This document shows, piece by piece, positions 4,778 through 19,813 of a stretch of 64,000 bases of DNA; position 1 is the first letter of the stretch; every line of letters begins with the position of its first letter. The DNA lies in the NCBI RefSeq assembly GCF_006442545.2, contig NZ_CP083952.1:4441501-4505500 (forward strand). The letters are read 5' to 3'. The position numbers were made by a program, and so were the translations under genes. The stretch is from Mesorhizobium sp. B2-1-8 (GTDB lineage: Bacteria; Pseudomonadota; Alphaproteobacteria; Rhizobiales; Rhizobiaceae). The notes under the pieces were generated by a model. The model was not told the DNA's origin and ran no database searches. It saw only the letters and a list, made by a program, of their open reading frames with translations.

Positions 4778-4853
<76 letters not shown>

Positions 4854-5227
4854 TTCCAAATCATAGAAATTGCGCTCTTCCGCTCCCAAAACGCTGATAA
4901 ATCAGTTGCTTGCGCAATCTAAGACGTTTTGTGGTCGCACGTCAACGAGTTGACTTACTGAGCTAATCGCCCCCAAAAACCCGGCCAAATTGCCGTCCGC
5001 TGTGACACCAGTGTGACAGGAGGAAGATGATTCCCACACATCAGCTTAAGCGCAAGCGACCTTCTTAGTGGTCATTCCGCGAACATGTAAGTGCTGACCT
5101 TAGCCACTTGACTGGCGATTAATTCCGAATGCCTCGACGGTTTTAAGGGTCGAACAACAGGGCCCGATGGCCGTCTTCATCTCCCCCGCACCCAAGCACT
5201 TTCCCTAACCTCAAAGCTTGTGCACTT
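4854..5227. other. Left end of element, non-coding
   Basis: 374 bp without a supported gene. It carries the first copy of the paired TGTGAC motif (5001-5019), 147 bp inside the attachment repeat, and otherwise nothing recognised. Confidence 0.6.
4999..5020 (+). repeat. Putative integrase arm-type site 1
   Basis: TGTGAC, five bases ACCAG, then TGTGACAGG: two direct copies 11 bp apart, one helical turn. The 22-bp block differs from the one at 12852-12873 (minus strand) at only three central positions. Related pairs lie at 13115-13133 and 15909-15927. Confidence 0.6.
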
Positions 5228-5812
5228 ATGCGCGGGTTGGGGTTGGAACAGAAAGTTAAGGCGCATTGCGCCGAAATTCCGAAAACGGCAGCGGGGTTGG
5301 ACATGCACGCATCGTTGAAAAATGTCCGGTTACTCTCTCTTCGAGATATTGCCCATCATTGGCACAAGCAGCTCAGATTGTCTGAAAGGGTAGTCTTGCT
5401 CGAATTGCGAAGGGGCGTTCTCAATCTGCACCGCGTCAGGGCAGGTCAAACCTGGCTGAAGCTGGAGGAGTTTCCGCCAGATGAGAAGCTCCCGCAGGAG
5501 GATACGCAAGTCGATCATGACTGGCTAGAAGCCTTCTGCAACAAGCAGACATGGCCGAAGCCGCTGTTCTGGTTTGATTCCGAAAGGGTTGAGCATCATT
5601 CGCGGGGACGGCCAGCATATCCCCGGTTTAGAGAGATCGAAGCAGAATTGCGAAGGCGAGGTGCACAGAAGGAAATGGAGACCACGCTGAGTGCAGAGGC
5701 GGACTACCTGCAAAGATGGGCTTCTAAGAACTTCTCAGAACTGGCGCCAAGTCAGAAAACGCTCAAGAATACGTTCCGAGGCTTATATAGCCGTTTTAAA
5801 TCAGACACTTAG
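5228..5812 (+). CDS. Hypothetical protein in integrative element
   Basis: 194-residue protein, not recognised. It is rich in charged residues and has no membrane segment or signal peptide. The last ~50 residues (from SAEADYLQRW to the end) look like a helical segment, perhaps a DNA-binding region, that would suit an element-borne regulator. The start is uncertain: ATG 5228 has no clear ribosome-binding site, while ATG 5303 (residue 26) has GGGG six bases upstream and may be the true start. It is the first gene inside the left attachment site. Confidence 0.6.
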   Translation: MRGLGLEQKVKAHCAEIPKTAAGLDMHASLKNVRLLSLRDIAHHWHKQLRLSERVVLLELRRGVLNLHRVRAGQTWLKLEEFPPDEKLPQEDTQVDHDWLEAFCNKQTWPKPLFWFDSERVEHHSRGRPAYPRFREIEAELRRRGAQKEMETTLSAEADYLQRWASKNFSELAPSQKTLKNTFRGLYSRFKSDT

Positions 5813-5959
5813 TGATACCGATTTTAGGGCCGAATTTTGGGCTGTTTTTTGGGTCTTCCGCTTTGGATAGGTTCGATGTGTCCGACGGGCTGATTAAGGA
5901 GCTCTACGAAAGCGGACAGAAAGGAAGACATATGAACAATCGGTATTAAGGAGAATATT

Positions 5960-7168
5960 TTGAAAGAATCAGATAAATTGAGAGGTGACTTTCTAAAAGA
6001 TTGCAAAGAGATAGCGACCTACCCCAAAATCCATCAGTTATTACAAGGATATATTGAGAGGCAAGGTTTCGCTGGATCTGCAAATATACCACTGTTGGTC
6101 TACCTTGTTTTGCTGACAGGTATGCTGGAAAGGCCTGTTTCACTATTGATCAAAGGACCGTCGGGGGCTGGAAAATCATTCAGTCTCCGTATGGGCAAAC
6201 AGTTCATACCCTCAGAAGCGTACGAAGAATTTGAGGGCATGTCCGAGAAAGCCATCGTCTATCTCAAGGGGTTTTCCTTGAAGCATAAGCATTTGATCAT
6301 TGGTGAAGCCTCAGGAATGGCTGATGGTGCCGGTAGGACCCTGCTCCGTCAGCTGCTCAGCGAGGGCAAGGTCAGGTACGCCACGGTAGAAAGCACTGAC
6401 AAGGGCTTGAAGGGCTCAGAGCTTCCGACGTTGGAAGGTCCGTGCGGCCTCATCATGACAACGACAGCGACCGGTATTCATCCTGAAGATGAAAACAGAA
6501 TGCTCGCGGTGAACATCCACGAGTCTCCTGACCAAATCGCTGGCGCGCTTGTGGCGATGGCCGAGGGAAAATCCAAAGGGAAAGAGCCACTGAATCTCGA
6601 ACCTTGGTTTGCTCTGTATCGATACATCAAGCTGGGACCGAAGAAGGTGGTTATTCCCTTTGCCATGGACATCGCAAAGGCGTTGCCGACAACACACGAC
6701 AAGGTCAAAAGGGACTTCCCTCAGATTTTGGCGTTAATTGAGGCTTCGGCTTTGCTGCACTCCTGCACCAGGGAGATGGACGAGAACGGGGCCGTAATCG
6801 CCAACGCTGACGACTACACGGTGGTTTACGATCTTGTGAACGACTGTATCTCGGAGGGTCTTGCCAAGACTGTCCCCGACAACATCAGGACCGTTGTCGA
6901 GGCTATCGCGGCGAGGACAGGCAAGGACGCATACGTCGGGCTGAGCAACACCCAGCTTGCCGAAATTCTCAATCGCGATCCGTCCGTGATCAGTAGGACG
7001 ACAAAGAAAGCCATTGAGGATGGATACCTTGAGAACTCTAATCCCGGCCAGGGCCGGGAAGCCAAACTGGTCATTGGGGGGCGTAAGCTTCCTTCTGGCT
7101 CGGCCCTTCCACTGCCGGAAGAGCTATTCGGCGCTCGTGAGGTAACCAACCTGAAGGCGGCTGAATAA
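5960..7168 (+). CDS. P-loop ATPase with C-terminal winged helix
   Basis: 402 residues. Walker A GPSGAGKS lies at residues 66-73, a Walker B-like HLIIGEASG near 111-119, and an ENRML stretch near 178 that could be an arginine finger. About residues 315-385 look like a winged-helix DNA-binding domain (LSNTQLAEILNRDPSVISR). This layout resembles AAA+/helicase-like ATPases used in replication or control of mobile elements, but I cannot name the family. The start is a TTG at 5960, chosen because AAGGAG lies six bases upstream (5948-5953) and the nearest ATG (5932) stops after five codons. The gene is followed by a stem-loop. Confidence 0.75.
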   Translation: MKESDKLRGDFLKDCKEIATYPKIHQLLQGYIERQGFAGSANIPLLVYLVLLTGMLERPVSLLIKGPSGAGKSFSLRMGKQFIPSEAYEEFEGMSEKAIVYLKGFSLKHKHLIIGEASGMADGAGRTLLRQLLSEGKVRYATVESTDKGLKGSELPTLEGPCGLIMTTTATGIHPEDENRMLAVNIHESPDQIAGALVAMAEGKSKGKEPLNLEPWFALYRYIKLGPKKVVIPFAMDIAKALPTTHDKVKRDFPQILALIEASALLHSCTREMDENGAVIANADDYTVVYDLVNDCISEGLAKTVPDNIRTVVEAIAARTGKDAYVGLSNTQLAEILNRDPSVISRTTKKAIEDGYLENSNPGQGREAKLVIGGRKLPSGSALPLPEELFGAREVTNLKAAE

Positions 7169-7177
7169 TTGCAAACT

Positions 7178-7240
7178 CCTCTCCCCTCGGCAACGCGGGG
7201 GGAGGCACTCTCAGCGGACTGCACAAGTGCAATTGTTTTG
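7178..7240 (+). terminator. Stem-loops downstream of the P-loop ATPase
   Basis: CCTCTCCCC (7178-7186) can pair with GGGGGGAGG (7197-7205). A second small hairpin, TGCAC-AA-GTGCA, at 7220-7231 is followed by ATTGTTTTG. Together they could end transcription of the ATPase gene; the T-run is interrupted. Confidence 0.45.
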
Positions 7241-7305
7241 TGGCCTCGGGGCAGCGCAACAAACCACATCTGGCCCGCCGGTCTAGCCTTCCATATTTTC
7301 TAATA

Positions 7306-7704
7306 TTAGTGAGCGGGAACGATGGTGTCGGGTATTATCGGCAATTCGCGATACAGCGCTTTAGCTGCCTCGCTAAGGGGTTTAAGCGGATTCTGACTGC
7401 AGTATTTTAGCATAAACGCTAACTGTTCTGAGACAGATGCGGCCGACAAATCGTGCCTCGTGTATGCTCCCGCTTCCTCAACGAGTTCAGCTTGTTTGTT
7501 TTTCCCAAGCAAGACTTGCTCCCACCACACATGAGCCATGTTGATCCCGCGCAAATAGCCATCCGCCCAGGACGAGATCATGTCACCGCTATCGTTTTGG
7601 TCAGTCGGGCTCCATCGGAGGATCTCGGCGCAAGAGCTGTTTCCCACGCCCATCGAGGTAAAAGGCCCGTTAGCCAGCGATACGGTGCATGACATTACAA
7701 GCAT
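7306..7704 (-). CDS. Small exported protein, Rap1a/Tai-like pattern; start region possibly frameshifted
   Basis: 132 residues from the first in-frame ATG. The pattern Cys near the N-terminus, W-A-D-G-Y-L-R-G-I-N, then LKYCSQNPLKPLSEAAKAL resembles small periplasmic proteins of the Rap1a/Tai immunity type; this is a weak resemblance. The leading segment (MLVMSCTVSLANG) looks like the end of a signal peptide. Just upstream, a strong GGAAGGA ribosome-binding site precedes an ATG at 7727-7729, which is out of frame by one base. With two A instead of three after that ATG, the protein would begin MKWALATGML and carry a complete signal peptide. The gene may therefore be frameshifted at its start. 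Confidence 0.6.
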   Translation of the reverse strand: MLVMSCTVSLANGPFTSMGVGNSSCAEILRWSPTDQNDSGDMISSWADGYLRGINMAHVWWEQVLLGKNKQAELVEEAGAYTRHDLSAASVSEQLAFMLKYCSQNPLKPLSEAAKALYRELPIIPDTIVPAH

Positions 7705-7805
7705 GCCTGTGGCGAGTGCCCACTTTCATACGCAATCCTTCCCGCTGGCGGCTTTTGTTTAATATATCGAGGTGTGTATTTTGAGCAACTGGGTTCGTTT
7801 CCCGC

Positions 7806-8033
7806 ATGGACTTGCGGGAAGTGCTTGCTGCGAATTTGCGCTGTCTGAGGCACCTAAGAGGGCTGTCTCAAGACGACCTTGCGTATGATGCGGGAGTTGG
7901 CCGGAACTACCTCAGCCAGATCGAGAAGGGTAAATATTACGCGAGCCTAAAGTTCGTCGGGAAGCTTTCGGTCGTGCTCCAGGTTGAAGGATGGGAGCTT
8001 CTGAAGCCGCCAGAAGGCGTTATCAAGGAATAG
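7806..8033 (+). CDS. XRE-family HTH transcriptional regulator
   Basis: 75 residues, almost entirely a Cro/C1-type helix-turn-helix: the central block is LSQDDLAYDAGVGRNYLSQI followed by EKGK. It likely binds operators in the element to control nearby genes. No convincing ribosome-binding site precedes ATG 7806 and no in-frame upstream start exists. Small XRE proteins like this commonly regulate excision or defence genes in integrative elements; its target here is unknown. Confidence 0.85.
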   Translation: MDLREVLAANLRCLRHLRGLSQDDLAYDAGVGRNYLSQIEKGKYYASLKFVGKLSVVLQVEGWELLKPPEGVIKE

Positions 8034-8142
8034 ACAGTGGGGAAAATAGCCGTCCACAAGGCGAACCGGACAGCCCTAGAAAGAACGTCATTGGAGACCC
8101 ACGAATGCCAACATGTGCCCCACTCCATGCCCCCGCACCCTT

Positions 8143-8487
8143 TCATCTGAATATCTGAAATATCATGCTCCAAATCGATGCCCGAACGACGGTTCTCGCG
8201 ACGGTATCGTGCATCTGATGGTTGAACGCCTTCTGCTCCACGAGGCGATCGGTCATAGCCTTTTGCTCTTCTAGGTAAATCTCTGCGAACCGCTTGGCGT
8301 CGTCATTGTCGCGAATACCAGCGGCGGCGACGTGTGATGCCAGCAGTTCTCCAAGTTCGGCGTCCCAAGCTTGACCAATCTCCCTGTGCGATAGGTTAGG
8401 GTTGACGTGGCTTCGAAGCAGATCGAAATCGGGGCCGACCATTTCGGCTATCGCGGCTCGGGTGAAGACCACTGTCTCTTTCGCCAT
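8143..8487 (-). CDS. Hypothetical protein in integrative element
   Basis: 114 residues, unrecognised. It is mostly helical and acidic (HREIGQAWDAELGELLASHV, then DDAKRFAEIYLEEQKAMTDR), with a short hydrophobic end (RASIWSMIFQIFR) that might touch a membrane. It is transcribed opposite to the XRE gene and ends about 110 bp from it. The ribosome-binding site is weak. Kept as a probable gene because its composition is protein-like and no other frame in the stretch is better. Confidence 0.5.
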   Translation of the reverse strand: MAKETVVFTRAAIAEMVGPDFDLLRSHVNPNLSHREIGQAWDAELGELLASHVAAAGIRDNDDAKRFAEIYLEEQKAMTDRLVEQKAFNHQMHDTVARTVVRASIWSMIFQIFR

Positions 8488-8981
8488 GGTGTTCGAAATC
8501 CCGGTGTTGGGTGGATGTTACCCCAACAATTTAACAATGGCCAATAGTGCAGGATGGCCCCGCCCACGCATTCTGCGTAAGTTTACAAAACGCAATTTTC
8601 CCAAATTGCGCCGGGGCCGTATACGATACCGGTACCCCCCGGCCTACCACCTTCGGCCTTACCGGGCGGCCCTCGCTTGCATCCGCCTTCGTGATACCGA
8701 TGCCTGTTCAATGAGGTTCAGTGACGCTTTTGGAAAACGTTTACAGCCTGGGAATACAAGGGCGTGCGGCGGTTTCATGCATACTTTTCGGCGTTGCGCG
8801 CTGTAAACTTTTGGCCCCTGCATCCTGGCAAATGGGCGCCGGAACAGACGGGATGGTTGCATCTGTAAGCCGTTCATAAAACCCCTGTGAGATTTCTTGA
8901 GCTGACCCGTTGATTTCCTTGACATTGAAAGGGCCCAATCGGATGTTCATAAAAGGAGTGTTTAATGAACGGAGGACAGCC
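8488..8981. other. Non-coding region before serine recombinase
   Basis: About 490 bp without a convincing gene. It holds a perfect palindrome (8591-8610), an inverted pair GTTTACAGC / GCTGTAAAC (8739-8747 and 8803-8811), and a six-codon minigene directly before the recombinase. These suggest a control region. Confidence 0.5.
8591..8610. promoter_or_regulatory. Perfect inverted repeat, possible operator
   Basis: CGCAATTT-TCCC-AAATTGCG, 8-bp arms and a 4-bp centre, between a minus-strand gene and the recombinase. The size and symmetry suit an XRE or similar dimeric repressor; the XRE gene 560 bp away is a candidate binder. It could also be a weak hairpin. Confidence 0.45.
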
Positions 8982-8984
8982 GTG
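8964..8984 (+). CDS. Leader minigene MNGGQP overlapping recombinase start
   Basis: ATG 8964-8966 with AAGGAG-type site upstream (8953-8958), six codons, and stop TGA at 8982-8985 region overlapping the recombinase GTG (GTGA). Its GGAGGA codons double as the recombinase ribosome-binding site. It is probably regulatory rather than a protein of its own; existence as a translated unit is inferred. Confidence 0.35.
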
Positions 8985-9653
8985 AGAAGGGCAGCTTTGT
9001 ATCTAAGGGTCAGTACCAAGGATCAATCGATAGAAAACCAACGTCTTGAACTTGAGAGGGTGGCTCAGGCAAAGGGCTGGGAGATCATGGCCATCTACCA
9101 GGACGAGGGGATCAGCGGGGCCAAGGGACGGGAAAGTCGACCTGCTTTCGACAAAATGCTCAAGGATGCAGTGAGAAACAAATTCCAAGTTCTGATGTCA
9201 TGGGACGTGTCGCGCCTAGGACGAAGCTTGACCGGCCTGATCGCAGCCTTGGACGACCTTCTTTGTCATCACATCGATCTCTACCTTCATCAGCAAGCGG
9301 TTGATACTACGACTCCCTCGGGAAAAGCGATGTTTCAGATGATAGGGGTCTTTGCCGAGTTTGAAAGAAACATGACCAGCGAACGGGTTAAGGCTGGACT
9401 TTCCGTAGCGAGGTCTAAGGGCCGGAAGCTGGGGCGGCCGTTCAAATACATTGACACTGCCCAAATGCAGCGCGACCGCGAAGCCGGCATGTCGATCCGA
9501 GCCATTGCATGCCAAAATGAAATGTCCGTGGGAAAAATCCATCGGACCCTTGTACGACTTCATAAAGAACGTCCCCTACGCGTGCATAATAGCTCTAATG
9601 GAGCGACTACTTTAATCAGCCTAACGCCAGAAGAGCGCGGGACAACTGGATAG
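8982..9653 (+). CDS. Serine recombinase (resolvase/invertase family)
   Basis: 224 residues from GTG 8982. The resolvase domain begins AALYLRVSTKDQ with the nucleophile Ser11, then IYQDEGISGAKGRESRPAF and DVSRLGRSLTGL; the C-terminal helix-turn-helix is about residues 165-200 (GRPFKYIDTAQ, then GMSIRAIACQNEMSVGKIH). It cuts and rejoins DNA as a tetramer, acting as resolvase, invertase or transposition enzyme. GGAGG at 8971-8975, six bases before the GTG, decides the start. A minigene MNGGQP with its own AAGGAG ends in TGA overlapping this GTG, so translation may be coupled. It lies 74 bp before the NACHT gene. Confidence 0.92.
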   Translation: MRRAALYLRVSTKDQSIENQRLELERVAQAKGWEIMAIYQDEGISGAKGRESRPAFDKMLKDAVRNKFQVLMSWDVSRLGRSLTGLIAALDDLLCHHIDLYLHQQAVDTTTPSGKAMFQMIGVFAEFERNMTSERVKAGLSVARSKGRKLGRPFKYIDTAQMQRDREAGMSIRAIACQNEMSVGKIHRTLVRLHKERPLRVHNSSNGATTLISLTPEERGTTG

Positions 9654-9727
9654 TTTTCTTGACATCCGACGCCGATTCCCGCGATCGTGCAGGTTGAAAT
9701 CCGTCGTCTAATTGAGGAAGCAGCCGC

Positions 9728-12700
9728 ATGCCTGTCGGGCCAGAAATCATAGTCGGTGTTCTAAGTTCGATTGTGTATGACGGTTTAAAACGTCCATATA
9801 AAGGGATTGCTGACATCGTCTACCGAAGGAGAGCTATAAATCGCTCACTTAACCAGATACCGGAGCCAGAACGCGGCACAGAGTTGAGACCGGAACTCAA
9901 CGACCTCATAAGGGTTCTTGGCAATGACCACGGCGTATACGATGACAATGTCGCCCAGTTCTTCTATGAGATCGAACGCAGTGCGATACCTGACGCACTG
10001 AAGCACTTTTCAATGTGTGGGAAAGACCCGGAAGCGGCTTACCCGGCGTTTGACTTGCTTTACAAATCGCATGCTCCCTTGCCCTTTCCTGGGCGAGCGC
10101 TGTTCGACGCCCTCAATACGGCGATTAAAACTCGATTACATCAAGGCGTAGAGGAGAAGATTCTTTATGAAGCGATAAAGGCAAACACTGGCGAAATCCT
10201 TCACCGGCTCGACGCACTCGCGAGCTGCTTAGAGAATGCCCAGTCGCTTGACGTTTTACCCTCAAGCCAGTTCGGAGAACTTCGCATTAAAGTGGCTAAG
10301 GGCATTGAGGCAGCAAATAGGCAAGTCAACGTAGAGACCACCCAAGGCACAAAAAAGATTCTCATAAGCAAGCTTGTGATTGCGCCCCGGCTGAGTCCAT
10401 TGACGCAAAAAGAAATTTTGGCAGCGCATAGGGACGCACACCACGACCGAACTCATAATATTAGTTATATAAACTTTAGACGAACGTTCAGCCGTGTTGT
10501 CATCCTGGGAGATCCTGGCGGAGGAAAATCCACTCTAACGCAAATTCTCTGCTACGACCTTGCAACTCAGATCGGCTTGGAAGCGTCAGCGCCCAGACAC
10601 CCGTCATTTGATACCCGCGATCTTATGATCCCGCTTCGTATCATTCTTAGGACTCTGGAGAAGAAGCAGCAAAAAGATCCATCATACAATATATTTGATT
10701 ACCTCGTCGATGATATTCGGGTGTACTGCGACAATGACCATACATTAGCTACAAAATTTCTGAAGCAGGCACTGGCGTTAGGTGAGGCAGTTCTGCTTTT
10801 TGATGGGTTAGATGAAGTACTGGAAGTTGGCGCAAGACGAGCAATGACCGCTCTGATAGAGCAGTTTGTTCACGCCTACAGCACTTGCCCGTCGATAGTG
10901 ACGTCAAGAATAGTTGGATATAAGGACGCACCGCTCAGCGACGACTTTGTGATATATACTCTATCTAGGTTGAATAAAGACGAGGTTAGGAAGTTCTCCG
11001 GACAGTTGATTCGAGCCGTATCTGGCCTTAAGAAAGCCGAAGCTGAGAAGAAGGCCGAGACGTTTATATCTCAGACTGAGAATACAGCGTCTGATCTAAG
11101 AGAGAATCCGCTATTACTCGGTCTAATGGTTTATATTTTCAATGCAAGAGGAGATGTGCCAAATAATAGGCCGGAGATATATAAGGAGTGCTCTATGTTA
11201 ATGTTTGAGAAATGGGATCAGAGGCGTGACATAATTTTCGATTTCCCGCAGGATTTCAATTTGCTCGACCTATTTGGGTACCTTGCATCGAACATATTTG
11301 GCAGTGCGGAGATGGAAGACGGGGTCACCGAGGAGTGGCTGGTTGGAAAGCTGAAATCCTTCTTCTTCTCCTGGTATGATGAGGACAAAGCGCGATCATA
11401 CGAGGCCGCAAAAGTCCTCGTGAACTTCATCACCGGCCGTGCATGGGTTATGTGCGATATTGGGCCGCACCTATTCAAATTCACACATAGAACTTTCCTA
11501 GAGTACTTCTTCGCCAGGCGACTCGAAGAGGAGGCCGGAGGTACAGTTGCACTGCTACAGGGGCATTTAATATCAAAGGTGATTAAAGCCGAGTGGGATG
11601 TGGTAAGCCATCTTGCTCTGCAAATCTCGACTTATCGAAGCGGAGTTCGCTCTACCCAAGCGCTCGATGCGCTTCTGAAGTACGGAGCGGACAATCGGCT
11701 GGGTCCGGAGGAGGAAACGAATTTCCTGACCTTTATTGCTAAGGCATTGGAGTATTTAATTGTCTCAGAATCTAAAATGCGAGAGGTTTTAGATTATGTT
11801 TTTCATCGTTGCATTCACCTCGGCGCCAACTTTAACGTCCGCTCTATTGAGATCATACATGACATCCTTCGCGCAACTCATAAGCGTGCAGCTTTTGTTG
11901 AAAAACGGATGCGCGAACAAATTGCACCGATACTTGCAGGTCGAAATTCTACTGATAGATCATTTGCTCTTTACCTGATCGGCGCCAGGTTTACCGGTTT
12001 CAGTTCGGGCTCAATGAATGGGTTAGTTACGCCATCTGATCGTGTTTGGAACGCATTTGCAGAGAGCAGGGCGAAGATCCAGAGTGAGGAATTGAAGCGC
12101 GCATTCAAGGACGTGGATGAGGCGAGAACGTATATATATATCTACCGGACCGATGTCATTGAGCTATACAGGAAATTTAGAGTTGGTCTTTTCGGGCTGC
12201 GTCCGTCAGCACTTGTTCCAGCGGAAATCGCTTCTCTTGCACCTATTCTGTTTCTCTCTACACTTAAAGGGCCAACTCGAACCCGGATCTATTTCGAACC
12301 ACCGTTTGGTTTAAACGAAAAGCAGGCGTCCGAGCTATTGGAGCTCATTGCAGAGGACATGTTGGTTGAATGGCGTGCAAATCGTGTGAAGGATGTCCTG
12401 GGCGGCGGGGACTATATGGCCAACGAGCTGTTCGAGGATTTGATCTTTCGCTCGCGTGAGGATGCTGGTGAAGAGAAGCGGGTGCGGCGAGCTCGACCTA
12501 ATGTTCGCGAGATTTTTTTGATGCTACTGTTCTTATGGGCAGGACGAAGCTCAAGAGCTATCGCTAGAGTGGGCCCCAAAGCGTTACGGGTACAGCACAA
12601 ATCCACGTTGTCGCGGCTTGTTGCCGAGGAATGGGCGTTTCCGGCGGACGATCCATATGGTCAAGCTATTTTAGAGATCATTCATTCTCTAAAGGCTGAA

Positions 12701-12742
12701 TTAGGTTCTCTACCGGAACGGTACCGTAGCCTAAATGCGTAA
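9728..12742 (+). CDS. NACHT-domain STAND NTPase, candidate anti-phage protein
   Basis: 1004 residues, soluble. The NACHT core has Walker A GDPGGGKST (261-269), Walker B LLFDGLDE (356-363), a sensor-like TSRIVGY (392-398), the NPLLLGLM motif (460-467) and the late NACHT block FTHRTFLEYFFARRLE (585-600). Residues 1-250 match no effector I can recognise, with no TIR or nuclease motif, and 600-1004 is an unassigned, probably helical region that may sense a target. Bacterial NACHT proteins are established phage-defence STAND proteins, and the location in an integrative element fits. Base use is AT-rich compared with the flanks. Start ATG 9728 has GAGG ten bases upstream. The defence function is inferred. 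Confidence 0.85.
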   Translation: MPVGPEIIVGVLSSIVYDGLKRPYKGIADIVYRRRAINRSLNQIPEPERGTELRPELNDLIRVLGNDHGVYDDNVAQFFYEIERSAIPDALKHFSMCGKDPEAAYPAFDLLYKSHAPLPFPGRALFDALNTAIKTRLHQGVEEKILYEAIKANTGEILHRLDALASCLENAQSLDVLPSSQFGELRIKVAKGIEAANRQVNVETTQGTKKILISKLVIAPRLSPLTQKEILAAHRDAHHDRTHNISYINFRRTFSRVVILGDPGGGKSTLTQILCYDLATQIGLEASAPRHPSFDTRDLMIPLRIILRTLEKKQQKDPSYNIFDYLVDDIRVYCDNDHTLATKFLKQALALGEAVLLFDGLDEVLEVGARRAMTALIEQFVHAYSTCPSIVTSRIVGYKDAPLSDDFVIYTLSRLNKDEVRKFSGQLIRAVSGLKKAEAEKKAETFISQTENTASDLRENPLLLGLMVYIFNARGDVPNNRPEIYKECSMLMFEKWDQRRDIIFDFPQDFNLLDLFGYLASNIFGSAEMEDGVTEEWLVGKLKSFFFSWYDEDKARSYEAAKVLVNFITGRAWVMCDIGPHLFKFTHRTFLEYFFARRLEEEAGGTVALLQGHLISKVIKAEWDVVSHLALQISTYRSGVRSTQALDALLKYGADNRLGPEEETNFLTFIAKALEYLIVSESKMREVLDYVFHRCIHLGANFNVRSIEIIHDILRATHKRAAFVEKRMREQIAPILAGRNSTDRSFALYLIGARFTGFSSGSMNGLVTPSDRVWNAFAESRAKIQSEELKRAFKDVDEARTYIYIYRTDVIELYRKFRVGLFGLRPSALVPAEIASLAPILFLSTLKGPTRTRIYFEPPFGLNEKQASELLELIAEDMLVEWRANRVKDVLGGGDYMANELFEDLIFRSREDAGEEKRVRRARPNVREIFLMLLFLWAGRSSRAIARVGPKALRVQHKSTLSRLVAEEWAFPADDPYGQAILEIIHSLKAELGSLPERYRSLNA

Positions 12743-12851
12743 CTGCACTATTAGGCTGAGCCATTAGGAGTACAGAGTGATTGGAGCGACGAGCCTTGTC
12801 CTTCTGATCTCTTTGCCACATGGGGATGGCGGGCCAGCTGTCGCTTACTTT

Positions 12852-12873
12852 CCTGTCACACTCCCGTCACAGC
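12852..12873 (-). repeat. Putative integrase arm-type site 2
   Basis: Minus-strand TGTGAC, GGGAG, TGTGACAGG, preceded by GC: matches site 1 at 19 of 22 positions. It lies 112 bp left of the relic tRNA end. Confidence 0.6.
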
Positions 12874-12984
12874 AGACGTCGAAGAATGGCGTTTGCTGTT
12901 GAGGATTGCGTGTAGCCGAGAAAGATCGTAGACTGCCTTAAGCAGCTGAATTTATTCAGTCTTTCGACAGGAGCGAAGGCGACG

Positions 12985-13049
12985 TTCAGCGGGAGAGCAC
13001 TGCATTGACATTGCAGGGGTCACAGGTTCAATCCCTGTTACGCCCACCA
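12985..13049 (+). pseudogene. Degenerate tRNA-Val (GAC) 3' part, relic att site
   Basis: Anticodon arm CTGCATTGACATTGCAG with GAC (valine), T-arm ACAGGTTCAATCCCTGT and the end TACGCCCACCA are tRNA-like, but the 5' acceptor strand does not pair with the 3' strand and the D-arm side is about two bases short. So this is not a working tRNA. A tRNA 3' end with foreign sequence upstream is the usual form of an attR site. It differs from the tRNA-Val(TAC) target, implying an element with a second valine-tRNA target. Confidence 0.7.
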
Positions 13050-13113
13050 TCCAACAGATTGAACCAAAGATAAATTCGATCTGTCCGCTTTCCTGAGGCT
13101 GTTCGAATTCGCT

Positions 13114-13134
13114 GCTGTCACAACTCTGGCACAG
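13114..13134 (-). repeat. Putative integrase arm-type site 3
   Basis: Minus-strand TGTGCC, AGAGT, TGTGACAG: the same 11-bp spaced pair with one change in the first half. It lies 65 bp right of the relic tRNA end. Confidence 0.5.
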
Positions 13135-13330
13135 TGGATGCGATGCAATGGCTACGTTCCGGAAGCGTTTGAATCAAATCGCAGGGTCCAGATTCGACGC
13201 CAGGGGCTTTCCACAATTTCAAGGTCATTATTCCTGAAGAAGGAAGACGCTGCGGGATGGCACATTCGGCGCGTGTGATGAGAACCGACAGCCAGAAGAC
13301 CAGTCGACTGGGTTGGGGAGGCAGGTTGCG

Positions 13331-14512
13331 TTATCGGTACGGCTTCAGCGCGGCAAAGGCGTCCAAGAGCTTTGGGTCAGCAAAGAGAGTGAGGCACCAT
13401 TTTTCTAGCTGGGCATAGATCGCTTCAATCTGCTCGTCTTCGGTGGCGGTCTCCAATAACACGTCCCCTAAGGACCTTCTGACTAGAATGAGGGTGTGTT
13501 TATTGTTGTTGCCAGGCTGATTTTTCGTGTGAACCACAGCGCCTTGTTTCCGAAGCTCGCCAGCGCGTTGTTCCAGCAGTTCAAGCATCTTGGTTGGCGA
13601 GGAGTTCGCCGGGTTCGCGTGGACTCGAATTGCCAGATCGATCCCTTTTTCCGGGTTAATCAGTTGAACGCCGTGGTCCGTAGGGTCGTACAAGAAGCCA
13701 ATCGCTATTGCGGGCTTCCAAGTACTCTCAGAGAAGACAATGGCCGTTCGTCCCCATGCATCGTGCACCTTGGGAGCGTAGTGATATTTTTGAGGTATGC
13801 AGTTCCATTCGTACTCGTTCAGGAGTCGCTGGCAATACCGATCCAATTGACCCTTAAAACCACGAGCGGCAATGAAAGCTTGCATTTCTAGAACCGTGAT
13901 GGCCCTTCCAGGCCCCAAACCTTCCATATTCATGAAGTACAGGAACTCCTCTATTAACCGATCTTTTGTACTGATGGAACATAGGATGCGATATACATCC
14001 CGCCAAAGAACGGCCTTGTAGGACAGACCGTCAAAGTCTGTTTTGGGGAATCTGTCGGCGACCTTCTTCTCATGTGCGCTTGCGCATACGAACGCCAGGA
14101 AGCTCCTTTCACCTGCCTTTCTAAGCTTTGCGTACCTTTTGAGCTGGAGCAAACTGCAAGGCGAATCCCATTTGTGCTCAACAACCAAGTTGAACTTGTT
14201 CTCCTCGATGTCATATCCAGACACATGAACATCAGGGTAGATCGAGGAGTAATTTTCATCATCGATGTGCGTCAATCGCGTATTGATTTCGACCGAACTC
14301 GCTGACACCTGTCCGCTTGTGAGCAGTCTTACCCACTCTCGCATCGCGGTTGGGTTTCTCTTGAGCACGTAAACTAGGGCCTCAGTCAGGAAGTTTTCTT
14401 TGGGCGAATGCCCGTCACGTACCCTGAACGAAAAAAGTGCCTTGAAGAGGTTTGGGTCGCCAGAAAGAGGGACCGGCGTCACGCTGCCGATGTCAGGTGC
14501 ATTTAGATTCAT
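13331..14512 (-). CDS. PD-(D/E)XK nuclease superfamily protein
   Basis: 393 residues. Nuclease core signs are E44 in ENFLTEALVYVL, PD at 93-94, the catalytic E112-H-K114 in VVEHK, and a following Q123-x3-Y127 (QLKRY), as in RecB-like and PDDEXK_4 proteins. The C-terminal half (about 220-393) is unassigned. Such proteins often take part in phage defence or restriction. It converges with the NACHT gene across a 588-bp gap holding the relic att site, so the two may come from different elements rather than one operon. Start ATG 14512; no strong ribosome-binding site noted. The function in defence is inference. Confidence 0.75.
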   Translation of the reverse strand: MNLNAPDIGSVTPVPLSGDPNLFKALFSFRVRDGHSPKENFLTEALVYVLKRNPTAMREWVRLLTSGQVSASSVEINTRLTHIDDENYSSIYPDVHVSGYDIEENKFNLVVEHKWDSPCSLLQLKRYAKLRKAGERSFLAFVCASAHEKKVADRFPKTDFDGLSYKAVLWRDVYRILCSISTKDRLIEEFLYFMNMEGLGPGRAITVLEMQAFIAARGFKGQLDRYCQRLLNEYEWNCIPQKYHYAPKVHDAWGRTAIVFSESTWKPAIAIGFLYDPTDHGVQLINPEKGIDLAIRVHANPANSSPTKMLELLEQRAGELRKQGAVVHTKNQPGNNNKHTLILVRRSLGDVLLETATEDEQIEAIYAQLEKWCLTLFADPKLLDAFAALKPYR

Positions 14513-14726
14513 GGCTTAAGACGATGACCAATTTGACGTCGACTGACGCAAGCGTATCTGTGATGATTAGCTGCTGTCGATACGAATGTTTTGAAACAGC
14601 GACTAAATTTGCAAAAAATCTGGTTGCCCATTTAACAGTTTGCCAGCGTGCAATTCGCCCCGGGGCCAAGCTTCCGGAGTCGGCGGGGATTACCTCGTCG
14701 AGGTGGCGATCTTGCGGATGCTAAGC

Positions 14727-14760
14727 AAAAGAAAAGGCCCAAGGTGGGTCCCAAGGGCCT
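14727..14760 (-). terminator. Rho-independent terminator of the integrase
   Basis: Minus-strand AGGCCC / GGGCCT stem with a 14-nt loop followed by TTTTCTTTT, 45 bp after the integrase stop. Confidence 0.75.
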
Positions 14761-14804
14761 AGGGAAGTGGGATAGCACATTCTTGGGGCATAAATGCAGA
14801 TATT

Positions 14805-15896
14805 TCAGTCGATCAGCTCTACCGTGTGCTGCCCCCTTGCCGTGTCAATCACAAATGCATGTCCTCCCGGCTCACCGTCATTGTCTATGAGTTTCGCTCT
14901 GACAGCTTCCTGACTGGCGTGAGAATACCGCATCAATTGAGCAATCGTCCTGTGACCTGAAATCGAGGCAACCTCAGGAACGGTCAGACCGAGTTCGAAC
15001 AGCCTAGAAATGGCTTCGTGCCTGAGGTCATGAAAATTCAGACCATCTATTCCTGCCCTCTCTGTCAGCCTGTCCCATTGAAGCCTCATTGCTACCGGCG
15101 TGACAGGAAAGGCTAGGTTCGTTGCCTTGGCACCTGCTGGGCGCACAGCCTCCAAAATCGAGACGGCTCGCTTCGTCAAAGGAATGATCCTCGAATAGCC
15201 CGACTTCGACTCAGGGATGACCAAGGAGAGGCGTTCGAAATCGACGTGGCGGAACTGGATCGAAAGTATCTCACCACGCCTCATGGCAGTCTCCAGGGCG
15301 AACAGTACGAGAGGAGCGACAAGCTTGTTCCTCCCTTTCTTCGTAGCTTCCAGAAGCCTTTCGAGTTCGCCAGCACGAAGTCGCCTTTCCCGCTTATTGT
15401 CGACCACTCGGAGCTTCAACCCGTCGAGCGGATTTCTCAGAGGAATTTCCCATTCGACCACGGCATGACGGAACATATGGGAGAGGGGAGAAAGCTCACG
15501 CTTCAACGATTTGGGGTTAACTGGCTTGTCTGATCGATGCTTGGGCTCGCTTAATCGCTGATCCCTATAAGTCGCAAAGTCAGCCGTGGTTAGGTCATAG
15601 AGCGTCTTCTGACAGATCGGATAGCGGAGGAAGCGGTTTAAGAGGATCGTCTCGACGGCTGAGCCCTTCTTTTTGGGGACAACCTCATCTCGATACCGTG
15701 TCACGAGATCGGTAAGGGTCATCGCTTTGAGAGCCTTTCGGTCGGGACCTAGCTCATGCCTGTCATGCTGGCGTTCAATGGTCCTCGCCCATTCGTTGGC
15801 GTCTGCCTTTGAGACGAATGACCTTGTTTGGACGGGGAATCCCTGGCGTCTGACTTGGACCTGCCATTTGCCGTTTCGCTTGCGAAGAGTAGCCAT
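14805..15896 (-). CDS. Tyrosine recombinase/integrase
   Basis: 363 residues. Residues 1-50 form an arm-binding-type N-terminal domain (GKWQVQVRRQGFPVQTRSF), a SAM-like core-binding domain spans about 60-160, and the catalytic domain has R206 (TAMRRGE), K231, H289-x-x-R292 (HDLRHEA), H315 (SGHRT) and the nucleophile Tyr324 (MRYSH). It would integrate and excise the element at tRNA-Val. It sits 126 bp from the right repeat, reading inward, and a paired TGTGAC motif lies 13 bp upstream of its start, where integrase could repress its own gene. All catalytic residues are present, so it may be active. Confidence 0.95.
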   Translation of the reverse strand: MATLRKRNGKWQVQVRRQGFPVQTRSFVSKADANEWARTIERQHDRHELGPDRKALKAMTLTDLVTRYRDEVVPKKKGSAVETILLNRFLRYPICQKTLYDLTTADFATYRDQRLSEPKHRSDKPVNPKSLKRELSPLSHMFRHAVVEWEIPLRNPLDGLKLRVVDNKRERRLRAGELERLLEATKKGRNKLVAPLVLFALETAMRRGEILSIQFRHVDFERLSLVIPESKSGYSRIIPLTKRAVSILEAVRPAGAKATNLAFPVTPVAMRLQWDRLTERAGIDGLNFHDLRHEAISRLFELGLTVPEVASISGHRTIAQLMRYSHASQEAVRAKLIDNDGEPGGHAFVIDTARGQHTVELID

Positions 15897-15908
15897 TTTT
15901 TGCTCCGG

Positions 15909-15927
15909 TGTGACTGTGCTGTGACAG
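15909..15927 (+). repeat. Putative integrase arm-type site 4
   Basis: TGTGAC, TGTGC, TGTGACAG, the same 11-bp spaced pair as the other three sites, between the integrase start and the right repeat. Confidence 0.6.
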
Positions 15928-16022
15928 CAACCGATTGGTCAGCTTTGGAGCTAGAGAGAGATAGCGCTATATCTTTGATTTTGAAGGGGTAATTGGCCTG
16001 CTTGGTTAAGCCCTTTTCGAGT

Positions 16023-16077
16023 GAGCGCTTCGTTTACACCGAAGATGTCGGCGGTTCGAGCCCGTCATCGCCCACCA
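16023..16077 (+). repeat. Right attachment repeat (attR), 55 bp
   Basis: Identical to the last 55 nt of tRNA-Val. The sequence upstream (TTTTCGAGT) does not complete the cloverleaf, so this copy is not a tRNA gene. Confidence 0.95.
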
Positions 16078-16463
16078 CGTCGATTCAAAGTTCGCAAGAC
16101 TCCAAATGCCTTCAAAGGCCGAGCGACCACCTACAAAATAGCAACAACTTTCGAAACGTAGCGCGATTGCGGCCGCAGTGTCGGAGCGCCACTGAGACAT
16201 CAAAGATTTCTGCGTGACGCACGCCAGGCTATTGTAGTGCCCCAAGGCGCTTACTAGCCGTCAACCCAAGGGAGAAGAAGGCCCAAAGGACTATCTCGGC
16301 TTGCCTTGATCAAGTCTTCGGCGCAATTTCGGATCGCTTTTTCGATTGGCGCCAGATACATCTTAGCGATCTTCACGGACAACCGAGGTCCCAAGATTGG
16401 CGCACCCTGTATTCAGAGTTACGAATTAGGCTTCGCTTGGATCACGTCTACGAGGGGCATTTG
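16078..16463. other. Non-coding flank right of the element
   Basis: 386 bp from the right attachment repeat to the next start codon. I see no gene, RNA or clear repeat here. Confidence 0.5.
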
Positions 16464-17216
16464 ATGCGAATTTCACATGCTTTCTTTTTGTTAGTCGTCT
16501 CAACTGTGACTATGTACGTCGCAGTCCAATTCGCCGTTGCCGACAAGGCGAAGTCGATACAGCAAGAGCCGATGACTTTTAAGATCATCGAGAATCCCCA
16601 CTGCGAGAACTGCGTTGTCGTGTTCGCCGACGGCGAGATTTCTGACACGACCATCGACCGCTTTCAGACGACGCTCGATCATCTCGAGAAGTCCACAAAC
16701 TGGTCGCGAGACAACGCCAGAAAGGGCCTAGGTCCACATTTTATCCTACTTCTTGATTCTCTTGGCGGGCTGGCCAGTCCAGCCTATTCAGTGTCAAGAC
16801 AAGCTAGAATTTACGGCGCAATAACGGTTGTCGCACGCCCGTCTGTAACAGTTGAGATCGACGGCGCGCTTGATCCCTCATCATGTAATTCTGCCTGCAG
16901 CCTCATTTTGATGGGCGGCAAGCAGCGCTTCTCCCACATTTTCTCCAATATCGGCCTCCATCAAATTTATCCTTTAGTCAAGGATAAGCGCAATTTCACG
17001 CGAAGCGAGGTTCTGCAATATTTGTCATTTTTCAAAGAAGGATCAGCTGATCTTGCTAGACATATTTCTGAGATGGAAATGGATCAGAGAATTTTTCTGA
17101 TTGCGATGCAGCAGACGGAAGATGAATTTCATTTTCTCAGTGCTTCAGAGGCCATATCGCTCAAATTGATAAACGCGAATGTTGACTCACTTGTTGGGAT
17201 TGACCATCGCTCTTAG
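16464..17216 (+). CDS. Periplasmic ClpP-like protein (COG3904 type)
   Basis: 250 residues with an N-terminal signal peptide or anchor (MRISHAFFLLVVSTVTMYV). The core LLLDSLGGLASPAYSVSRQA, then CNSACSLILMGGKQRF, matches the pattern of predicted periplasmic ClpP/crotonase-fold proteins (COG3904), where Ser in the NSAC-like segment could be catalytic. GAGGGG six bases before ATG 16464 decides the start over a possible codon at 16437. It is AT-richer than the housekeeping genes and lies just outside the integrative element, so it could be older imported DNA. Its role is unknown. Confidence 0.75.
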   Translation: MRISHAFFLLVVSTVTMYVAVQFAVADKAKSIQQEPMTFKIIENPHCENCVVVFADGEISDTTIDRFQTTLDHLEKSTNWSRDNARKGLGPHFILLLDSLGGLASPAYSVSRQARIYGAITVVARPSVTVEIDGALDPSSCNSACSLILMGGKQRFSHIFSNIGLHQIYPLVKDKRNFTRSEVLQYLSFFKEGSADLARHISEMEMDQRIFLIAMQQTEDEFHFLSASEAISLKLINANVDSLVGIDHRS

Positions 17217-17235
17217 CATTCCTTGCATTGAATAA

Positions 17236-17295
17236 CCGCATATCCAGGACCATTGACAAAATCTCTTTGGTCAATGCTTTACATCTGATATGCGG
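17236..17295. terminator. Large nested inverted repeat between convergent genes
   Basis: Outer 9-bp arms CCGCATATC (17236-17244) and GATATGCGG (17287-17295) enclose 7-bp arms CATTGAC (17251-17257) and GTCAATG (17270-17276). Between convergent genes, it probably works as a two-way transcription barrier, although no clear U-tract follows. Confidence 0.5.
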
Positions 17296-17331
17296 GCCTA
17301 GGCAAAAACTTCTTGCCCAATCGCTATGTCT

Positions 17332-18279
17332 TTAGCCCTCAAACTTTTTTAACCCCTTGGCCAGCAGCTCCCCAACCTCCTGCAATGTCGGCATCGACGG
17401 TGCGGTGCCTGGACGGGTCACGGAAATGCCGGCAACGGCGCAGGCGAAGCGCACCGCCTCCAGCGGCTCCATGCCGCGCGAAAGTGCTGCGGCCAGGCCG
17501 CCATTGAAGGCGTCCCCCGCGCCGGTGGTCTCGACGACAGGGCCGGCACTGATGGCTGGAACATGCTCGGACCGATTCTTCGCGTGCAGCAGCGCGCCCT
17601 TGTCGCCGAGCGTGACGATGACCGTACCGACGCCCTTTTCAAGCAGCTTGTCCGCGGCGACGCGCGCTTCATCGACGGAGGAGACTTTCAGCCCGGTCAA
17701 TTCCTCCGCCTCTGTCTCGTTCGGCGTAAGATAGTCGCAGAGCGTGTAGATGCGGTCGGGAAGCGTTGCGGCGGGTGCCGGATTGAGAATGGTCGTCACC
17801 CCTGCCCCGCGCGCGATCTCCAGGGCCCGCATCGCGGCATCGATCGGCTGTTCGAGCTGCGTAACGAAAACACCGGCACTCCTGACAAGGTCGGCATTGG
17901 CATCGATATCCTCAGGCGTGATCAGCATGGCGGCGCCGGGGCTGACGATGATGGCGTTGTTGCCGCTTCCCTCCTCGACGAAGATGTAGGCGGCGCCGGT
18001 ATAGCTGTCCGGCGTGTCGATTGCGGCGCTCTTCACGCCGGCATCCTTCCAGGTCCGCTTGGCCATGTCGGCGAAGGCGTCGACGCCGAGCCTGGTCAGG
18101 AATGTGACGTCCGCCCCCAGCTTGCCGGCGGCCACCGCCTGGTTCGAACCCTTGCCGCCTGGTCCCAGCTTGAAGGAATTGCCGAGGATCGTTTCACCCA
18201 TGCGCGGCTGGCGATCGGCGCGATAGGCGGTGTCGGCAACAAACACACCGAGAATGACGATCGGCTTGCCCGAGGCCAT
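17332..18279 (-). CDS. rbsK: Ribokinase (PfkB family)
   Basis: 315 residues. The N-terminal substrate motif is GPGGKGSNQAVAAGKLGADV, and the C-terminal PfkB signature TTGAGDAFNGG holds the catalytic Asp; NPAPA near residue 170 is typical of ribokinases. It phosphorylates ribose or a related sugar with ATP in the cytoplasm. Start is the ATG at 18279 (MASGKPIVILG), 4 bp after the mutarotase gene ends; longer readings add an un-family-like leader. With RbsD/FucU next to it, a ribose- or deoxysugar-like substrate for the locus is probable. Confidence 0.93.
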   Translation of the reverse strand: MASGKPIVILGVFVADTAYRADRQPRMGETILGNSFKLGPGGKGSNQAVAAGKLGADVTFLTRLGVDAFADMAKRTWKDAGVKSAAIDTPDSYTGAAYIFVEEGSGNNAIIVSPGAAMLITPEDIDANADLVRSAGVFVTQLEQPIDAAMRALEIARGAGVTTILNPAPAATLPDRIYTLCDYLTPNETEAEELTGLKVSSVDEARVAADKLLEKGVGTVIVTLGDKGALLHAKNRSEHVPAISAGPVVETTGAGDAFNGGLAAALSRGMEPLEAVRFACAVAGISVTRPGTAPSMPTLQEVGELLAKGLKKFEG

Positions 18280-18283
18280 GCCG

Positions 18284-18736
18284 CTACTCCGCATCCGGCG
18301 GCACGACGCCCTTGCGGAAAGCAAAGCAGCCGTAGAACCGGAGTTCGCCGGTCTGGATGACGCAATAGGCCTGCTTGGCTCGCTCGTAGAAGGCGTAACG
18401 CTCGACCGGCACCATCGGCCAAGACTTGCCCTCGGCGGCGTCGATCTCCTTCTGCACTTCCTTTTGCACGGTTGGAATCTCGTCCGGCTTGCCGACGATC
18501 TCCATGCGAGCGGCCGAGTCGTCGACGAACGTGTCCAGCGGGTAAAGCGACAGCACCGCCTTCACCACCTGCGCCGCCGAGGCATCGATGCGCAGCACCC
18601 GACCGAGCGCCGTCTGGCGCGCCACCGAATCGGAGGGAAAGTTGGTATCGGCGATGATCAGGTCATCGCCATGGCCCATCGCCCGCAATGCCTGGAGCAC
18701 ATCGGCATTGAGCAACGGATCGATCCCTTTGAGCAT
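18284..18736 (-). CDS. RbsD/FucU family sugar mutarotase
   Basis: 150 residues. MLKGIDPLLNADVLQALRAM, then GHGDDLIIADTNFP, is characteristic of the RbsD/FucU family; the conserved His of the MGHGD segment and the C-terminal Tyr-rich part are present. It interconverts anomers of imported sugars (fucose or ribose type) before kinase action. Sequence features look closer to FucU, but the neighbour is a ribokinase, so the substrate is open. It lies between the MalK-type ATPase gene and rbsK in a three-gene minus-strand operon. Confidence 0.92.
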   Translation of the reverse strand: MLKGIDPLLNADVLQALRAMGHGDDLIIADTNFPSDSVARQTALGRVLRIDASAAQVVKAVLSLYPLDTFVDDSAARMEIVGKPDEIPTVQKEVQKEIDAAEGKSWPMVPVERYAFYERAKQAYCVIQTGELRFYGCFAFRKGVVPPDAE

Positions 18737-18763
18737 GATGGTCCTCGTGAAGTACGTTTGAGA

Positions 18764-19813
18764 TCAGAGACGCTTGCCGGTCTCGGCATCGAACAGATGG
18801 ATATGGTCGAGCCTTGGCCGAAGCCTCAGCGTGTCGCCGGGCTTGAAGTCATGGCGCTCGCGAAACAGCGCCACCATCTCGCCGTCGCCGAAGCGCAGGA
18901 AGACCAGGGTTTCCGATCCGGTCGGCTCGACCACCGAAATCTTGGCCGGCACGCCATCGGGATGGATCTCGAGATGTTCGGGCCGCACGCCATACACCAC
19001 GGAGCGCCCCTCCTCGACGGCGTTGTTCGGAGCAACCGGGAACAGCGTTCCGGCAATGTCGACGCCACCCTTGCGCCCGGTGCCCTTGAGCAGGTTCATC
19101 GACGGCGAGCCGATGAAACCGGCGACGAAAAGGTTGGCCGGCCGGTCGAAAAGCTCCAGCGGCGCGCCGACCTGTTCGATGCGGCCGTCGCGCATGACGA
19201 CGATCTTGTCGGCCATCGTCATGGCTTCGATCTGGTCGTGGGTGACATAGATGGTGGTGGTCTTCAGCCGCTGGTGCAGCTCCTTGATCTCGGTGCGCAT
19301 CTGCACGCGCAGCTTGGCGTCGAGGTTCGAAAGCGGCTCGTCGAACAGGAATACCTGCGGATTGCGCACGATGGCGCGCCCCATGGCGACGCGCTGACGC
19401 TGGCCGCCGGAAAGCTGGCGCGGATAGCGCTTCAGATAGGGGCTGAGGTCGAGGATGTCGGCGGCGCGCTTGACCCGCTCGGCAACCACGGCCGGATCGG
19501 TCTTGCGCAGCTTGAGGGCGAAGGCCATGTTCTGCTCCACCGTCTTGTGCGGATAGAGCGCATAGTTCTGGAACACCATGGCGATGTCGCGTTTTGCGGG
19601 CGGCAGGTGATTGACGACGCGGTCGCCGATGGCGATCGTGCCGCCAGAGACAGTCTCCAGCCCCGCCACCATCCTGAGCAGCGTGGACTTTCCGCAGCCT
19701 GACGGGCCGACAAGCACGACGAACTGGCCATCGGCAATGTCGACGCTGACTTCGTGCAGAACCTTGACGGTTCCAAACGCCTTGGCCACCTTGCTTATCG
19801 CGACTTGAGCCAT
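18764..19813 (-). CDS. Sugar ABC transporter ATP-binding protein (MalK/UgpC type)
   Basis: 349 residues. Walker [14 protein letters not shown], the signature [17 protein letters not shown], Walker [13 protein letters not shown] and a C-terminal TOBE/regulatory domain of about 110 residues are present. It energises a CUT1-type importer, most likely the binding protein and permeases encoded divergently from 20090. Start ATG 19813 (MAQVAISKV) has GGGGGAA just upstream; a longer frame adds 34 unlikely residues. Such ATPases can serve several transporters. Confidence 0.94.

Follow-up and report, generated by a model that had tools for sequence, protein, structure and literature searches.

The 64,000-nucleotide stretch of Mesorhizobium sp. 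B2-1-8 DNA analysed here (contig NZ_CP083952.1, positions 4,441,501 to 4,505,500; hereafter the window) contains an open reading frame (ORF; 9728..12742, plus strand) that begins with ATG and which, as the frame itself, family matches and a homologue search all indicate, encodes a NACHT (STAND NTPase) protein of 1004 residues related to the NLR proteins. The question raised by this locus is how such a protein might act when the regions on either side of its NTPase match no named domain. This effector gap is recognized in the field, since in the account of clade 14 given in PMC12169576 the proteins bNACHT02 and 12 protect against phage without a readily discernible effector domain. On balance, sequence comparisons lead us to favour the view that the gene by itself encodes an NLR-like switch for defence and is exchangeable cargo on a tRNA-Val island, the N-terminal domain of the protein serving as the effector. 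As one gene for which no conserved partner was found, it would make a clean test case for how effector-less NACHT proteins act.

The NACHT core and its flanks

A sequence-only reading of the window had proposed an NTPase core for this protein, and each of its elements was found where that reading had placed it: Walker A, GDPGGGKST (residues 261–269; 10508..10534), Walker B, LLFDGLDE (residues 356–363; 10793..10816), and FTHRTFLEYFFARRLE (residues 585–600; 11480..11527), all on the plus strand and all recovered in the family alignment. This alignment (A1) comprises 103 of the 120 listed homologues, 17 shorter proteins (553–937 residues) having been omitted, and its members are 910 to 1082 residues long (median 996). 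Walker A reads GDPGGGK[ST]T in all 103 rows, the window protein counted, and the TSR sensor and NPL motifs are likewise present in every row; THRTFLE is found in 78 rows, with three near variants adding another 24 (the top four forms). K267, within Walker A, is presumably the usual site of Walker A mutants. The homologue search itself returned 193 proteins at E<=1e-3, the window protein included, among 8000 scored candidates, a number that far exceeds chance; most of those listed are about 1000 residues long.

Matches of the window protein to named families centred on this core. The Pfam NACHT model scored 24.9 bits on residues 256–421 of the window protein, 1.8 bits under its cut-off of 26.7, and was matched at E<=0.1 by all 45 members scanned, the window protein included. 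The remaining matches were weak (mad8, 16.4 bits, and PDC-S73, 10.4 bits, in PADLOC; phrog_18297, function unknown, 47.2 bits, in PHROGs), and those from PADLOC, NCBIfam and PHROGs all centre on the NACHT module. A close full-length match to an already described defence protein, which would have spoken against novelty, was not encountered in Pfam, PADLOC, NCBIfam or PHROGs. A sequence search of the PDB matched nothing; profile searches of the PDB returned adenylate kinase and other P-loop chains, together with a designed protein over residues 773–870 at E 0.083 and some helical chains whose E values, 0.18 at best, are those of chance. A literature search yielded no title or abstract that we recognized as describing this NACHT family, although its absence from the literature is not thereby proven.

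STAND proteins are described in PMC12169576 as tripartite, with a C-terminal part that senses, an NTPase that exchanges nucleotide and oligomerizes, and an N-terminal domain that acts. The window protein is a three-part chain with conservation graded in an NLR-like manner. Mean identity to it (n=102) is 53% over the NACHT NTPase and the conserved helical/winged region (residues 246–690; 10463..11797, supported by conservation and Pfam), 32% over residues 1–245 and 17% over residues 691–1004, so that the boundaries can be refined to an N-terminal domain of approximately residues 1–245 and a conserved core reaching to about residue 690. The hypervariable C-terminal part (11798..12739, plus strand) is the putative sensor. 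The last 400 residues had been described as carrying no known repeat; no repeat or Pfam match was indeed found, but the domain-free part, residues 691–1004, is nearer 310 residues long. When residues 600–1004 were aligned with themselves by hhalign, the only second match covered 9 columns at 0.1%.

Relatives numbered 128 when GTDB species genomes were scanned; 78 loci were kept, and 54 of the 55 loci inspected (L002–L056) gave a frame, mostly of about 950–1050 residues with 250–300 before Walker A, the starts having been assigned mechanically. A maximum-likelihood tree built from 59 NACHT cores groups the 51 rows drawn from the family profile together (97/95), their N-terminal domains having been compared for only part of these rows, and leaves five NNH1 and three NNH7 cores outside the group. 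The alphaproteobacterial rows form a single set of 16 (99/95), and the nearest row to the window protein is that of Stappia indica (L002; 100/99); one row, L028, sits on a very long branch. Two members of the same genus depart from the usual form. One protein (P0003) is 86% identical to that of the window over 70% of its length and ends at 707 residues, lacking nearly all of the variable C-terminal part, either through truncation or as an artefact. The other (L102:8517-11445) is probably decaying, because it is split over two separate open frames.

The N-terminal domain

Residues 1–245 (9728..10462, plus strand) are probably helical and comprise a hydrophobic first segment (residues 4–25) and a linker to the NACHT module, as judged from conservation, hhalign and periodicity, and form the putative effector. 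This region had been said to carry no recognizable effector motif. In this the sequence-only reading was right, for Pfam placed nothing at E<=0.1 on either the N-terminal or the C-terminal part of the window protein, and the Pfam families met by several members were P-loop or NTPase ones (among the commonest 25 of 36 families for 45 members and the commonest 25 of 38 for 46 N-terminal domains); weak matches of single relatives were taken as chance. The region is nevertheless not unique to this protein. When the window-family profile of residues 1–245 was compared by hhalign with 20 actinomycetotal N-terminal domains, the two matched at 97.5% (E 8.8e-12, 217 columns), and comparison with 15 others, from Cyanobacteriota, Acidobacteriota, Myxococcota, Planctomycetota, one archaeon and six distant Alphaproteobacteria, gave 98.4%, the full set of 35 giving 98.3%. 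The aligned spans were 217–221 columns and reversed controls reached 0.5–1.5%. These comparisons identify a domain common to relatives in other phyla, and a defined domain of 245 residues would thus span Alphaproteobacteria, Actinomycetota, Cyanobacteriota and an archaeon.

Conservation within the domain is concentrated in three blocks, namely the first segment (consensus G-x3-S-x4-GLxR), residues 61–100, and residues 201–220 with VETxxG. The last of these adjoins the NACHT module and is the best conserved stretch of the domain; in the window protein the motif reads VETTQG (residues 202–207; 10331..10348, plus strand), and its E203 and G207 are invariant across the 103 rows. The only charged or hydroxyl residues conserved in at least 90% of these rows within residues 1–215 are D59, E203 and T204, and with so few conserved polar residues an enzyme is the less likely. 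Helical hydrophobic periodicity was found in 0.43 of windows in the N-terminal part and 0.45 in the C-terminal part, above all 100 shuffles.

The closest candidate for a named relation is NNH1, one of the known NACHT N-terminal helical domains. A profile of the N-terminal domains of 35 relatives matched the N-terminal regions of 12 NNH1 (PF22733) proteins at 92.3% (E 5.5e-7, 127 columns), the matching columns being those of the stretch nearest the NACHT module; actinomycete rows taken separately gave 88.1%, the 15 others gave 66.4%, reversed controls 0.1–0.3% and 20 shuffles at most 0.4%. The link to the window family itself is remote, because it runs solely through relatives: the window family compared with NNH1 by itself gave no match (1.4%). 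In keeping with this, the Pfam NNH1 model was absent from the tables of the window protein at E<=0.1 and from the commonest 25 of the 38 families for the 46 N-terminal domains. No profile match was obtained with NNH2, NNH5 or NNH7, although NNH2 was represented by one sequence and NNH5 by two, which makes these weak tests, and proteins matching NNH3 or NNH6 did not occur in the genomes searched. Both NNH1 and the present domain precede a NACHT module, and many NNH1 proteins likewise begin with a hydrophobic stretch, as judged by eye; their NACHT cores, in contrast, form separate clades, and the branches that part these are long. On the strength of these profile comparisons we regard the domain as a new type among those that precede NACHT, remotely linked to NNH1 but not a member of it. 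The suggestion that the protein may hold a new effector or sensor type therefore needs qualifying: its parts are unnamed by the libraries, but the N-terminal one is shared with other phyla and has this distant link.

Five distant NACHT proteins (21–26% identity) occur on viral contigs of IMG/VR (L080–L084); the four frames with an intact 5' end lack most of the N-terminal domain, since Walker A lies only about 90–125 residues from the start.

A proposed single-gene switch and the alternatives to it

Whether such a protein works with a partner was considered by comparing 41 loci (the window, 9 close and 31 farther ones, some shortened by contig ends), in which the ORFs lying up to 5 kb from the NACHT gene, some of them mechanically called and spurious, were each compared with all the others at E<=1e-8. 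Of the neighbour groups that this gave, the two most widely shared covered 8 and 5 of the 41 loci, all of them actinomycete, and the 10 closest loci had no neighbour family in common except the window with one other, L100. A two-gene system was accordingly rejected, there being no conserved neighbour within 5 kb over these loci, and what the comparison leaves looks like a single-gene system. Because no neighbour family exceeds 8 of 41 loci, the effector should be either in the chain or supplied by the host. The occurrence of the gene is patchy. At E<=1e-30, 146 genomes of the genus yielded a match in 4, this one counted (identities 100, 55, 42 and 42%), and 72,556 plasmid records yielded one partial match; even at 1e-10, nothing was matched among 50,697 phage records.

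A defence role is suggested by the family to which the protein belongs, by the mobility of its gene and by the variability of its C-terminal part. By analogy with other proteins of this architecture, we propose that the C-terminal part, residues 691–1004, would keep the protein switched off until a product of a phage or other element, or the resulting damage, is encountered; the NACHT module, residues 246–690, would then exchange nucleotide and oligomerize; and oligomerization would gather the N-terminal domains, residues 1–245, which as effectors would stop the infected cell. Since there is neither a conserved partner gene nor a catalytic set in the N-terminal domain, the simplest reading is that a non-enzymatic effector is contained within the chain. 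It might, for example, insert its conserved hydrophobic first helix into the membrane, but membrane action is only a guess. If sensing does reside in the C-terminal part, its variability means that natural relatives could be used to map the range of triggers.

Several described systems invite comparison with the protein. The bNACHT proteins (Kibby et al., 2023, as cited) likewise have an N-terminal effector slot, a central NACHT and a C-terminal sensor, and those of clade 14, as described in PMC12169576, resemble the window protein in having no recognizable effector; they differ in that the Pfam table of the window protein holds no match to PD-(D/E)XK or to a NACHT C-terminal helical domain, the presence of a SNaCT model in Pfam being unchecked. 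EruA (NF058535), a NACHT antiphage protein by its family name, gave 38.4 bits with its best stretch at residues 341–501, and was weakly matched by all 45 members; this equivalog family requires 1000 bits over 1318 positions, and only part of the NACHT module is common to the two. The four-helix HeLo/MLKL domains and the plant ZAR1 resistosome offer an analogy of working only, in which, according to PMC12881547, the first helix of an N-terminal helical domain goes to the membrane after the NLR has oligomerized; no such family is among the Pfam matches of the window protein and there is no link in sequence. A relationship with Avs (AVAST), for which a profile search had been proposed, found no support: PADLOC, whose library we take to include Avs models, returned only the weak mad8 and PDC-S73 matches for the window protein, and none of the 9 families matched by the 45 members was an Avs family.

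Several observations weigh against our proposal. No named defence system gene was detected by PADLOC among the other seven island proteins scanned (best PDC-S05, 14.9 bits), and several relatives stand alone among seemingly ordinary chromosomal genes, as judged by eye. The NNH1 link is lacking for the window family taken alone and, in the wider set, falls to 66.4% once the actinomycete rows are left out. The periodicity is a weak sign of helices, because the NACHT module itself scores 0.39 in the same count. Finally, the first helix is weakly amphipathic, 500 shuffles reaching its value in 4.6% (residues 4–21), 3.6% (8–25) and 21.6% (5–22) of cases, and the best 19-residue hydropathy of the first segment is 1.24, with values above 1.6 in just 7 of the 103 rows; the segment is thus hydrophobic, but to judge from these figures not convincingly either amphipathic or transmembrane. 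In a bolder version of the proposal, which we consider rather unlikely, a single-gene NLR family found in bacteria of several phyla and one archaeon would have in its N-terminal domain a new type of death effector that acts on the membrane. If true, a single chain of 1000 residues would combine sensor, switch and pore-former, and the protein would be a self-contained bacterial equivalent of the plant resistosome.

An alternative that we take seriously while thinking it unlikely is that the N-terminal domain is an adaptor or autoinhibitory scaffold, which on activation would recruit, through homotypic or other contacts, either a protein of the host or an effector whose gene lies elsewhere. The domain is N-terminal, non-enzymatic and probably helical, as is a class of effector-associated and Death-like domains of prokaryotic conflict systems set out in PMC8195603, and the position of its best conserved stretch, residues 201–220, next to the NACHT module would fit a regulatory role. 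A partner, however, was not conserved within 5 kb in the 41 loci, and free-standing copies of the domain, as an adaptor system might require, were hardly seen. Its profile was found in 2 of 297 genomes of the order, this one included, once in each and only within frames of 1006–1008 residues (at most 9 candidates being scored per genome), and a protein search with a further alignment (A4) gave four short proteins of 258–461 residues on contigs of 3–6 kb, which are perhaps fragments.

STAND proteins also include regulators, and it is conceivable, if quite unlikely, that the protein acts outside defence, in regulating or stabilizing its island or as a switch in cell stress. Its gene does stand alone, with no recognized defence gene beside it; but patchy occurrence, a hypervariable C-terminal part and a slot with varied cargo are more in keeping with conflict than with housekeeping, and the gene is not tied to the island (see below). 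Less probable still, and in our view very unlikely, is that the N-terminal domain is a divergent enzyme, or that the roles are reversed, with the C-terminal part as effector and the N-terminal domain as sensor. Although the C-terminal part matches no named domain either, residues 1–215 hold no conserved catalytic set, no Pfam enzyme family was placed on the N-terminal part of the window protein and no non-P-loop one was common to the 46 N-terminal domains (commonest 25 of 38), and effectors are normally better conserved than sensors, whereas the C-terminal part is here the most variable.

The tRNA-Val island and its cargo

The NACHT gene is cargo of an 11.2-kb island inserted at tRNA-Val(tac), as is apparent from the tRNA gene (4778..4853, plus strand), whose 3' 55 nucleotides form the left repeat (4799–4853), an exact copy of that repeat at the right end (16023..16077, plus strand), a tyrosine integrase (14805..15896, minus strand; PF00589, 84.1 bits) and an empty site in a relative. 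The earlier placement of the gene on an integrative element is thereby upheld. G+C content is 0.482 in the NACHT gene, 0.513 in the island and 0.625 in the remaining window. The tRNA-Val region was present in all 61 genomes searched, this one counted. At the empty site (L089), which is collinear, tRNA-Val is followed after 20 bases by the equivalent of 17354–18830 of the window, so that 4857–17353 is lacking, including 1.3 kb beyond the right repeat; this was the one empty site among the loci of 11 relatives (about 3 kb each), the others being rearranged or uninformative. The additional segment, 16078–17353, is of low G+C and holds one ORF (16437–17216); it lies outside the right repeat and may be either a second insertion or an older end of the island.

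Within the island, a 3' fragment of tRNA-Val(gac) (12986..13055, plus strand; 69 of 70 nucleotides identical to the host's own gene) marks the right edge of the cargo slot and is a second attachment remnant. The presence of this piece within an island at tRNA-Val(tac) gives the island a composite look, as if elements that target two different valine tRNA genes had been combined. The 64-kb window has five TGTGACA/TGTCACA words (5001, 5012, 12854, 13116 and 15920), and every one of them falls within the island, close to its ends and beside this third attachment-like site. Their place, rather than their number, suggests arm-type sites of the integrase, about 8 being expected by chance in the whole window by our estimate.

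The serine recombinase (resolvase/invertase family; 8910..9653, plus strand; PF00239, 145.8 bits) ends 74 bases before the NACHT gene. Its adjacency, noted by the sequence-only reading, is correct as to position, but it belongs to the island backbone and is of no use as a functional clue. Among the 40 other loci, a relative of it near a NACHT gene was found in one, L100 (genome G123), and relatives of the integrase in L100 and, more distantly, in L031, L018 and L035, so that the NACHT gene is not tied to this island; the recombinase was rejected as a system component on the same count. L100 is a sister island at tRNA-Val(tac), with an integrase 85%, a recombinase 64% and a counterpart of the 7306–7704 product 89% identical to those of the window. 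In the corresponding slot, but on the opposite strand, it carries a NACHT gene 55% identical to that of the window. The two islands share no junction on the recombinase side in either orientation; at the far side of the slot, common backbone starts again at about 12892. The tree leaves the two NACHT genes unpaired, that of the window being nearest to the Stappia gene. With the same backbone, opposite strands, 55% identity and no pairing in the tree, the slot between the recombinase and the tRNA-Val(gac) piece has apparently taken up different NACHT genes, or had its cargo replaced.

The idea of an on/off switch, in which the recombinase would invert the NACHT gene, can hardly be entertained, for all that the genes lie on opposite strands with a recombinase adjoining in both, since no inverted repeat of more than 15 nucleotides was found flanking either gene, the junctions on the recombinase side cannot be aligned, the genes are 55% identical and their nearest rows in the tree differ; an invertible gene was therefore rejected. 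With a relative in one of 40 loci and no bounding inverted repeats, the adjacent recombinase says nothing about function.

Some minor observations concern neighbouring genes here and at related loci. In Rhizobium sp. Leaf306 (L009:9012-9635, minus strand) a small serine recombinase, 28% identical, lies about 360 bases from the NACHT relative. In Bradyrhizobium betae (L008:9679-9755) a tRNA-His ends about 210 bases before the NACHT relative, and its 3' end was not found repeated exactly over 16 nucleotides or more at that locus. In the window, the interval that separates the tRNA-Val(gac) piece from the integrase holds a gene (13331–14512, minus strand) for a protein of 393 residues without a match in Pfam, PADLOC, NCBIfam or PHROGs, whose PDV ... 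EHKW run we take, by eye, to resemble a PD-(D/E)XK nuclease; L100 has a different, shorter ORF at this place. The frame at 5960–7168 (plus strand) encodes a protein of 402 residues with a P-loop, GPSGAGKS, and a C-terminal end with weak winged-helix matches; this is perhaps an ATPase that serves the island in replication or control.

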